Translations under genes and position numbers: made by a program | Notes under the pieces: generated by a model | Told to the model about the DNA's origin: nothing | Database searches by the model: none | The model's input: only the letters and a program-made list of their open reading frames with translations | Assembly (NCBI RefSeq): GCF_004751985.1 | Contig: NZ_CP038492.1 | Span: 2,108,001-2,172,000, forward strand | Direction of reading: 5' to 3' | Length of the DNA: 64,000 nucleotides | Source: Rhodophyticola sp. CCM32 | GTDB taxonomy: Bacteria > Pseudomonadota > Alphaproteobacteria > Rhodobacterales > Rhodobacteraceae | Shown here: positions 30,774-63,796 of the stretch, piece after piece | Layout: each line of letters opens with the position of its first letter | Position numbering within the stretch: position 1 is the stretch's first letter

Positions 30774-31843
30774 ACGTATTGCTGATTAGATCAGACGTTC
30801 AGCTTGCGGGACCCGCCAAGCTTATGCATGCGTATGCCCGAGCGCTTCGGATGGCTGGTCATTCCGTTTGTATTGCAAGCGGCGGTGGTGAGTATGCCGA
30901 ACAACTGGTCGCAGACGGCTTTGAGCACCACAAAATACATGGCCTTGCTATCCCGGATCGCAGCCTGCGCGGCACGCCCGGTTGCATTCGAAATATAGCC
31001 ATGCTGATGCGCAGTAAAAAAGTGGCGGTGGTCAACTCCTTTAATTTCCACGCAGGCTTCTACGCAGCATTGGCCGATATTCCACAGCGCCGCATCCACG
31101 TTAACACGGTCCTGGGGACCGGTAGAGAGTGGACGAACCGGATTTTTCCGGGAAAGGTGATTGCCGTTTCAAAAGATGTCCGAAGACGTCTCATTGAAGC
31201 AAAGGTCCCGGAGAAAAAGATATCTGTTGTTTACAACGCGACCCTTGACGATGAATTCTTTGCGCCGGTGCCGGAGATGTCGCAAAATGATGGCAGCCCT
31301 GGTAAGCCTGTCAACTTGATAGGTATCGCGATGTTCACCGGCAACAAAGGCCATGAATTCATCATTCCATTGCTTGGGAAGCTTGTGAACGAACATAGCC
31401 TGGACGCGACACTCACGCTTGTGGGGGACGGTGAATCTCGCGCGTATTGCGAAAAAATGGCCCGCGACCTGGATTTAAGCGATCGTATCCTGTTCACCGG
31501 CGCTTTGACGAACGTTATAGACCCGCTCGACGCCGCCGACATCATGGTTCATCTGCCTCGTTTTGAAACATTTGGAATCGTACTGGCCGAAGCAATGGCC
31601 CGGGGACTTCCGGTCATATCAACACGAGTGGGCGGTATACCAGAGGTCGTCGTGGAGAACGAAACGGCTGTGCTTGTAGACGACCGGGAGCATACCGAGG
31701 AAATCTTGGATGCCCTTGCCCAATTGATCAGTGATCCGACGCATCGACACCGTCTTGGGTCTAACGCTCAAAAGGAAGCAAGAAGACGTTTCCACATCGA
31801 CCAGTTGCAGCAAGATATTCTGGCCACCTATGCTGATGGCTAG
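30770..31843 (+). CDS. GT4-type glycosyltransferase
   Basis: A 357-residue GT-B fold glycosyltransferase. The N-terminal domain begins M-N-V-L-L-I-R-S-D-V-Q-L-A-G-P-A. The C-terminal domain has the nucleotide-sugar motif E-T-F-G-I-V-L-A-E-A-M-A-R-G-L-P-V near residues 263-279, with V-G-G-I-P-E-V after it. It would add a sugar to a surface polysaccharide made with the adjacent ligase-like protein. The start overlaps the upstream gene (ATGA). The TAG stop is also the TA at which a 100-base palindromic element begins. Confidence 0.9.
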   Translation: MNVLLIRSDVQLAGPAKLMHAYARALRMAGHSVCIASGGGEYAEQLVADGFEHHKIHGLAIPDRSLRGTPGCIRNIAMLMRSKKVAVVNSFNFHAGFYAALADIPQRRIHVNTVLGTGREWTNRIFPGKVIAVSKDVRRRLIEAKVPEKKISVVYNATLDDEFFAPVPEMSQNDGSPGKPVNLIGIAMFTGNKGHEFIIPLLGKLVNEHSLDATLTLVGDGESRAYCEKMARDLDLSDRILFTGALTNVIDPLDAADIMVHLPRFETFGIVLAEAMARGLPVISTRVGGIPEVVVENETAVLVDDREHTEEILDALAQLISDPTHRHRLGSNAQKEARRRFHIDQLQQDILATYADG

Positions 31844-31942
31844 AGTACCCTGCCTTAAACCTGAGACATCGCGCATCACAAATACCCTGGGAACGCGAAG
31901 CGTGGCAGGGTATTTGTGATTCAAGTTTAAGGCAGGGTGCTT
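31843..31942 (-). mobile_element. 100-base TA-flanked palindromic element, copy A
   Basis: Exactly 100 bases between TA (31841-31842) and TA (31943-31944). On the minus strand it begins AAGCACCCTGCCTTAAAC and closes with GTTTAAGGCAGGGTACTC, forming an outer stem of about 18 base pairs and an inner stem of 15 (ATCACAAATACCCTG with its complement). Copy B at 63096-63195 is the same length and about 93-95 percent identical by eye. Its ends carry short inverted repeats, and removal with one TA leaves CTAG, the target favoured by IS630-type transposases. It carries no gene of its own. Confidence 0.85.
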
Positions 31943-62200: not shown

Positions 62201-62597
62201 GCGCGGAGGGTCGGATGGCCGCGAGCCCGTAAAGGTTCGAGGAAAGTCCGGACTCCCTGAAGCAACGGTGCCGGGTAACGCCCGGGCGGAGCAATCCGAC
62301 GGAAAGCGCCACAGAAAACAGACCGCCTTCGGGCTGCCCGGGGTCACCCCGGGTGTGCAGCGGAGGTCAGGGTGAAACGGTGGGGTAAGAGCCCACCGCG
62401 CCGCTGGCAACAGCGGCGGCATGGCAAGCCCCACCGGGAGCAATGCCAAATAGGGATCTCGCGGGCCTGTCCCAGGGCCGCTTCAGCCCGAGAGATCCGG
62501 GTTGGCAGCTAAAGCCGGCGGGCAATCGCCGGTATAGAGGAATGGTCATCAAGGGCGGCAACGCCTGAACAAAATCCGGCTTACAGACCCTCCGCGC
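62201..62597 (+). ncRNA. rnpB: RNase P RNA (class A)
   Basis: The 5' and 3' ends pair perfectly (GCGCGGAGGGTC with GACCCTCCGCGC). Universally conserved blocks appear in order: GAGGAAAGTCCGGACTCC near 62230, ACAGAAAACAGACCGCC near 62310, GGTAAGAGCCCACCG near 62382, AGAGGAATGGTCATC near 62537, and ACAAAATCCGGCTTACAGACC near 62568. It processes the 5' ends of tRNAs with the RnpA protein. It starts just after the amidase gene. Confidence 0.97.
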
Positions 62598-62738
62598 ATT
62601 TCTGTTGACCCAACCGGTTTCCACAAGGAAACCGTGTGGCATTCATGCGAATGCCAAACCCGCAGCCAAAGCGACGGCCTGATCTGCAGGAGCCTCCGGC
62701 GGCCATATTTATAAAGCAAAGAGGAGATATGGTGCGCC

Positions 62739-63410
62739 TTGCCATGTCCATTGGACAAGGTGACCCTGCGGTTCCCTGCGCCAGCGCCAAACGTGCTGTG
62801 GGTCAGCGATTTTACCTATGTCACGACATGGCAAGGGCTTGTCTATGTCGCCTTTGTCATCGATGTCTTTGCTCGCCGTATCGTTGGGTGGCGTGTCAGT
62901 CGCACGGCCACTGCCGGATTTGTCCTCGATGCTTTGGAGCAGGCCATTCATCAACGCAGGCCTGCACAGGACCAACTGGTGCATCACTCGGATCGCGGGT
63001 CGCAATATCTGTCGATTAAATACACTGAACGATTGTCTGAGGCGAAGATCGCTCCGCCCGTCGGCAGCGTCGGGGATTCCTATGACAATGCCCTAAAGCA
63101 CCCTGCCTTAAACTTGAATCACAAATACCCTGCCACGCTTCGCGTTCTCGGGACATTTGTGATGCGCGATGTCTCAGGTTTAAGGCAGCATGCTGTAGCA
63201 GAAACGATCAACGGTCTCTTCAAAGCAGAGGTCATTCACCGGCGGGGGCCCTGGCGCAGCTTTGAGGCCGTCGAATACGCCACCCTCGAATGGGTAGATT
63301 GGTTCAATAACCGGCGACTGCTGGAGCCGATCGGGAACATCCCACCAGCCGAAGCCGAGGCGAACTTCTACGCCGCACTGGAAAGATCAGACTTGGCCGC
63401 TCAACTATAG
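62739..63410 (+). pseudogene. IS3-family transposase, 5'-truncated and interrupted
   Basis: The C-terminal integrase core of an IS3-type OrfB. The first catalytic aspartate lies in V-S-D-F-T-Y-V and the second in H-H-S-D-R-G-S-Q-Y; the third residue, the glutamate, is in A-E-T-I-N-G-L-F. OrfA and the first third of OrfB are missing, as the frame starts at an internal point 140 bases after rnpB. A 102-base insertion (the element plus one TA copy) separates D-N-A-L from A-E-T-I-N-G without breaking the frame. It adds 34 residues between the second aspartate and the glutamate, so the protein cannot be an active transposase. Confidence 0.88.
63096..63195 (+). mobile_element. 100-base TA-flanked palindromic element, copy B (in frame in transposase)
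   Basis: Exactly 100 bases, flanked by TA at 63094-63095 and 63196-63197. It is nearly identical to copy A at 31843-31942 (opposite orientation) except for a few bases near the loop and the right end (CAGCATGCTG against CAGGGTACTC). Excision with one TA leaves GCC-CTA-GCA-GAA-ACG, encoding A-L-A-E-T, the expected transposase sequence; the uninterrupted site reads CTAG. Confidence 0.88.
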
Positions 63411-63510
63411 CGTTTCGACTTTATATTGAGACAGTGTAACGGCTTTCGCGTTTGAGCCAAAGACGAAAGCCAGCGAAAGGCGTTTCAACAGTAAGTCGAA
63501 ACTCTTTAAG
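63405..63510. repeat. Palindromic intergenic repeat, copy 4 (TAAAGCGTTTCGACTT family)
   Basis: Begins CTATAGCGTTTCGACTTTA at the transposase stop (TAG at 63408-63410) and closes with GTAAGTCGAAACTCTTTAA. The interior shares GGCTTTCGCGTTTGAGCC with copies 1 and 3. The 286 bases from 63511 to 63796 show no gene that I recognise. Confidence 0.8.
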
Positions 63511-63796
63511 GCAAATCAGCCTCCAGAAAACCCGGCGCGGTTCAGACAGCGAACACCGCCTGTGCCTTCATGCCGGTGATAAAGCTGGTCAAATCCCCGG
63601 GCCTCTGTCATCGGGCAGTCCATCCTGTCATGGCATTCGCGCTGATCTGCAATCCAATGCTCCTGAGCTGAGGTTGCAATCGTTTACATGTCGATTTCAG
63701 AATAAGCGAGACAGCAGGTATCAGGTTATGAAAACGACTACATACCCGATCTGTCATCAGATTCGTGTCAACCCAAGTTATGCAGAAAGCCCCTGA

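Follow-up and report, generated by a model that had tools for sequence, protein, structure and literature searches.

A TA-flanked 100-bp palindromic element in frame within an IS3 transposase remnant of Rhodophyticola, and its relatives in Rhodobacterales

Correia and RUP elements are MITEs flanked by TA, and IS630 itself prefers CTAG as its target. The excerpted text of PMC2170065 states that IS630-family transposition duplicates TA. Palindromic elements of 100–150 bp that can sit within open reading frames (ORFs) in a frame-neutral manner are described for Rickettsia (RPE) and Wolbachia (WPE) in excerpts of PMC10969869 and PMC3767692; the former presents RPEs as in-frame MITE fusions of unusually high frequency, and considers similar protein evolution elsewhere in prokaryotes conceivable. 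REP sequences, which are associated with RAYT transposases, are shorter palindromes (20–40 bp) with a GTAG or CGTC tag (PMC3733652, in the part consulted).

The window analysed here, a 64,000-nt stretch of the genome of Rhodophyticola sp. CCM32, carries a 100-bp palindromic element (MITE) at 63096–63195 on the forward strand, within an IS3-type transposase ORF of the same strand (62739–63410; Pfam rve). TA target duplications adjoin it at 63094–63095 and 63196–63197. The original prediction of an in-frame palindrome with these bounds proved exact: the ORF remains open through the element, the TA supplies codon positions 2–3 of a CTA (Leu) codon, and the element plus one TA adds 34 stop-free codons. 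The element has terminal inverted repeats and no transposase gene, and the arms of the quasi-palindrome are 84% complementary over 25 nt. Folded as DNA, the element strand reaches −26.1 kcal/mol against a shuffle mean of −11.1 (z −6.75; none of 200 shuffles was as good), and the two strands folded as RNA give z-values of −6.74 and −6.26 against shuffles. A second copy (31843–31942, reverse strand), 93% identical over 109 bases, also has TA on both sides. This copy had been described as non-coding; its existence is confirmed, but the insertion falls within a predicted gene's stop codon.

The ORF carrying the element is itself incomplete. A close IS3 homologue from a Rhodobacteraceae plasmid aligns with window positions 62740–63094, 63192–63407 and 63507–63545 only, and no window counterpart was found for the first 700 bases of the homologue slice, so the host ORF is a 5′-truncated remnant. 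At the insertion site, two IS3 homologues (L282 and L283) read CTG-GCC and CTG-GCG where the window reads CTA-element-TAGCA, and the 34-residue segment, predicted to be foreign to IS3 transposases, is absent from both. The ORF matched 660 plasmid records, and the 12 listed align in two pieces covering 76–80% of the query, as expected of genes without the insert. The element lies just upstream of an Ala-Glu pair that presumably holds the catalytic Glu of the DDE triad. An insertion into the DDE core of an IS3 transposase had been proposed, and the rve ORF is indeed confirmed, although what received the element, as it now stands, is a remnant.

The stop region of this remnant is occupied by a different TA-flanked palindromic element (63408–63506, forward strand; TA at 63406–63407 and 63507–63508), which lies at the stop codon and whose sequence matches about 40 places in the genome (50 rows over the two strands, with 40 of the 71 candidates scored). 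The remnant itself lies directly behind a class A RNase P RNA gene (62203–62599). That gene and one tRNA are the only window matches above the Rfam cut-off, and identity of the element with a known Rfam RNA was rejected.

A search with a 34-base piece, allowing up to three mismatches, located at least 92 copies of the element in the CCM32 genome (3.86 Mb, one contig) and none in the reversed control; the number is a lower bound, as a protein search picks up two or three additional places of greater divergence. When all 92 were aligned with 3 kb of flank on each side, TA was present at both ends in 86, while the left TA was missing in three and the right TA in three. Copies outside the window thus keep their TA flanks, in agreement with the predicted mobility by TA duplication. 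One copy (at 3184155) is a hybrid, its left half coming from something other than the element. The targets of the 86 copies were CTAG (35), CTAA (16), TTAA (11), ATAG (10), TTAG (8), CTAT (5) and ATAT (1), a preference for YTAR with CTAG the commonest. Flanks mostly differ between copies; the few that recur do so because the element sits within repeated IS.

The 100-bp unit and its TA together make 102 bp, so that insertion preserves the reading frame. Because a TAG or TAA with its TA at codon positions 1–2 is already a stop, four of the six frames are usable at YTAR sites, two per strand. The consensus contains 5, 0 and 0 stops in the frames of one strand and 3, 1 and 0 in those of the other, and three of the four usable frames are open, which goes further than the predicted frame neutrality with stop-free reading. 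Of the two usable plus frames, one is open in 83 of the 86 copies and the other in 58; for the minus frames the counts are 71 and 0. The pattern is less clean outside the CCM32 genome, where 15 elements (100 bp, both TAs) gave 11, 6, 7 and 9 open copies in the four usable frames.

A tally of genic against intergenic copies, suggested as a check on the original prediction, yields 3 genic copies out of 92 by a coding model, all in frame and all in integrase-core (IS3-type) transposase genes, a sample too small for a test of frame bias. Genic copies were defined by at least 30 open codons and a coding signal on both sides under a two-codon model, used since the single-codon frame score was too weak; gene calls are predicted and uncurated. 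Long open frames alone are a misleading sign of coding: eight copies have at least 60 open codons on both sides, and a coding signal accompanies them in three. Under the same model, 17 gene ends stop exactly at the TA, in 16 of the 92 copies, and the original TAG or TAA gives way to a new stop, immediately in 14 of the 17 and 5 codons later in the other 3. Genes running into the element in the other two frames number eight together, and the remaining copies are intergenic or without clear assignment. Given open usable frames and stops that are rebuilt so promptly, the element is nearly harmless both inside codons and at stop codons. With so few genic copies, all in transposase genes, and 16 rebuilding stop codons, its in-frame position in the window looks like tolerance rather than selection. 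The anticipated capacity to persist in protein genes stands as far as the geometry leaves the frame open; the 5′-truncated host and the IS3-type nature of all genic copies lend no support to a useful or selected segment.

The CCM32 genome contains 17 matches to DDE_3 transposases. One IS630 type with the end TAGAGCGTTTTGCGTTTAAT shares 12–13 of 20 positions with the element ends, a likeness reached by 0.5–1.1% of the TA 20-mers of the window, and its other end shares only 9–10 of 20. No autonomous IS bounded by the same ends as the element was found in the genome among the matches listed; the end search (up to two mismatches) gave 200 matches, of which the 92 copies would account for 184, and the control gave 12. 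PF13358 matches in two other host genomes likewise showed no ends matching the element.

The element is very probably a non-autonomous, hairpin-forming MITE of the IS630/Tc1-mariner type whose insertions keep the frame by geometry, the window copy being neutral in a dead IS3 gene. A transposase acting in trans, whose kind and identity we infer, would excise the element and insert it at TA, preferably within YTAR and best of all CTAG, duplicating the TA. The element would have landed in the IS3 gene, now truncated, with the frame staying open through geometry and not through selection on the protein. The same geometry may have allowed a Rhodobacterales relative to reach fixation within the reading frame of a conserved plasmid gene. 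Like MITEs of this type, the element is short, lacks a transposase gene, has terminal inverted repeats and a TA duplication, and is present in many, mostly intergenic copies; unlike them, it has an exact 100-bp unit, a CTAG/YTAR preference with insertions into stop codons, a core found across Rhodobacterales with exchanged arms, and no matching partner IS that could be found. In the excerpted text of PMC11578231, MITEPye1 of Paracoccus yeei, of the same order, is also an intergenic stem-loop MITE, but it has IS1182-family ends and 1–3 copies per chromosome. The CIR of Caulobacter, another alphaproteobacterial intergenic palindromic repeat, is set apart by its description in the excerpts of PMC10969869, where it is reported as strictly intergenic. 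Identity with REP/RAYT was rejected, as the element is 100 bp long with a TA duplication and its ends start with neither the GTAG nor the CGTC tag.

Relatives of the element occur well beyond CCM32. A BLAST search of 41 genomes (its own and 40 relatives) matched four: its own, a same-genus genome with nine places, and two with single places. The relatives resemble the element more in the inner hairpin than in the arms, and the family trait is a common 38-bp core between arms that are diverse yet complementary. A search for the exact core pattern was positive in 10 of 248 family genomes, that of CCM32 included, and gave 79 matches in 78 stretches of named genomes, belonging to Rhodobacterales, Nitratireductor alexandrii and one Alphaproteobacteria MAG. 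A phage origin was rejected, with no match in phages and no exact core pattern in viral contigs. Of the 79 core-pattern elements, 78 were measured (L237 was left out); 52 are exactly 100 bp, and TA is found at both ends in 23, at one end in 40 and at neither in 15. As the scan of named genomes required the core, its conservation there follows from the choice of data, which does not apply to the diversity of the arms. Across 29 elements, 86.3% of cells pair, a figure favoured by taking the pairing structure from the window copy, and two-sided changes number 123, compared with 53.0 ± 5.7 when shuffled and no more than 57 when slid. Common flanks surround a family element in the same-genus genome (G003) and in Rhodophyticola sp. 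IP29b_bin.114. A coding-like frame was seen in 12 of the 78 elements; 11 of these are in a regulator gene, and the twelfth (L193) was left out of the genic count, as the genes beside it lie on the other strand. One of the 17 rows from a regular-expression search (L162) is a virB9-side locus. While the kind of element, an IS630-type MITE, is already known, no description of this Rhodobacterales family was found in the open-licence PMC literature searched, including the excerpted texts of PMC10969869, PMC2170065, PMC11578231, PMC3281130 and PMC3767692; most subscription papers lie outside that search.

The in-frame relatives were found by plasmid BLAST within CDSs labelled 'regulator' or hypothetical, adjoining ParB. 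In an alignment of 22 sequences (the query and 21 others) hand-picked from 113 homologous regulator proteins, a 33-residue segment is inserted in frame at one site in 8 and absent in 14; proteins without it are often 197 aa long and most of those with it 230–236 aa. Among the 60 listed of 203 plasmid records matching the regulator, 45 have the long form (660–692 nt) and 15 are 591 nt, though long forms are favoured here because the query carried the insert, and 38 of the 45 are from Pseudosulfitobacter pseudonitzschiae, many of them near-identical. At the DNA level, four empty sites lack the 99 nt found in eight filled ones. No TA is left at this site, so the target duplication is not demonstrable there. 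Of the eight filled copies, one (CP069021) no longer keeps the frame, and the products of two are 220 aa long.

A plasmid type designated L249 carries different arms, again complementary, at the same regulator site. Compared with its relatives, the core differs at 1–2 of 38 bases and the arms at 31–34 of 61 (Fisher p ≤ 7e-7 against each of five related sequences, which is one contrast seen five times and not five contrasts). Since the four-fold sites of the host gene differ by only 0.20–0.33, two separate insertions at the one site are likelier than drift.

Other plasmid copies lie at operon junctions. The core region matched 85 plasmid records; among the 60 listed, a CDS underlies the match in 25 (regulator, VirB2, VirB9 or hypothetical) and none in 35. 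At the loci read in plasmid type IV secretion operons (L177, L284–L289), family elements lie between virB8 and virB9 (PF04335, PF03524) and between a lytic transglycosylase gene and virB2, where the annotated virB2 start is overlapped in three of four cases. The element ahead of virB9 reads in frame with the gene, although its translation is only putative. A further position is the gap separating the regulator from the gene that follows it (a DUF6927 gene in L193), and two plasmids of Pontibrevibacter nitratireducens ALG8 (L250, L251) differ by an element at such a junction.

A rival reading is that the element is a functional DNA or RNA hairpin, and that selection keeps its core either because it serves mobility or because it has a regulatory role at such junctions. 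The near-identity of the L249 core beside replaced arms, in a host gene with appreciable four-fold divergence, is consistent with such selection, as are the recurrent junction positions at virB8-virB9, virB2 and regulator-DUF6927 and the two-sided changes that preserve pairs. However, the L249 case is a single contrast repeated against related sequences, orientation relative to the genes varies from one junction to another, with copies in both, the right side of the core is changed in 22–23 of the 92 CCM32 copies, and the named-genome scan, having required the core, is no proof of its conservation. A functional hairpin is accordingly possible but doubtful. More tentative still is a broader proposal, that the palindromes form an order-wide Rhodobacterales family whose construction spares reading frames (a unit of 100 bp to which TA is added, stops concentrated in the frames unusable at YTAR, and ends that rebuild stops), with a core under nucleotide selection even within an ORF. 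On conjugative plasmids, copies would have been co-opted in operons for replication and transfer, either as segments read in frame or as hairpins at operon junctions; the family would be an independent counterpart of the RPEs. The family is a tractable case in free-living bacteria, offering clear TA duplication, filled and empty alleles of one plasmid gene, and two arm types at one site. The core differs less than the silent sites of its host gene, and whether elements of this sort are tolerated or used becomes directly testable.

An RPE-like role, in which functional genes take up the element in frame and keep the extra peptide as a modification of the protein, appears improbable. It draws on the 33 residues inserted in frame into the conserved plasmid protein and on the empty and filled DNA of that gene, with the proviso that the 8 in 22 come from a selection out of 113. 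In CCM32, by contrast, the genic copies are confined to transposase genes, and the plasmid insert evolves without regard to its translation. For five full filled plasmid genes, obtained by protein search and not by the core pattern, the regulator before the insert has pN 0.008 and pS 0.259, against pN 0.176 and pS 0.156 for the insert (0.069 and 0.047 without L249) and pN 0.046 and pS 0.070 for its core. A wider set of ten CDSs gave pS 0.230 and pN 0.009 before the insert and pS 0.073 and pN 0.056 within it; most of these were picked via the core pattern, and core rates were therefore taken from the set of five. The host protein is strongly constrained, whereas the insert, as protein, is unconstrained. 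With the RPE and WPE, as far as the excerpts of their descriptions go, the element shares palindromy, compatibility with ORFs, orthologous insertion sites and one site with different arms; it differs in its low genic fraction (3 of 92, all transposase genes), its free-living Rhodobacterales hosts and its clear TA duplication. Frequent in-frame insertion into functional genes is not seen in CCM32, and relatives provide one orthologous in-frame site; the named loci are not from Rickettsia or Wolbachia, but from Rhodobacterales, one Nitratireductor and one alphaproteobacterium. By distribution the 100-bp element is not an RPE, and the two are set side by side by description. The likeness to Rickettsia palindromic elements that had been pointed out is supported by the relative in the conserved plasmid gene, and not by the window copy.

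A native origin of the segment, as a variable region of IS3 transposases, might be suggested by the open ORF but is ruled out for practical purposes by its absence from L282 and L283 and by the presence of the element at 91 other places.

Several features of the CCM32 copies bear on how the MITE has changed and spread. Among the copies (L051–L129), the right side of the core is altered at element positions 55–59 in the 22–23 mentioned above, and the right end at positions 94–100 in 13–16 of the 92. Both changes bring the sequence closer to perfect complementarity with the left side, as though the quasi-palindrome had been corrected. In five copies (1255693, 1273453, 1505950, 1889305 and 3757547) the left flank is that of one copy and the right flank that of another, as would result if flanks had been exchanged through recombination among copies or through nested insertions. 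Five copies of the IS630 type with the TAGAGCGTTTTGCGTTTAAT end (L132, L133, L134, L135 and L139/L145) all have the element inserted at exactly the same position, indicating that it was present before that IS last spread and was copied with it.
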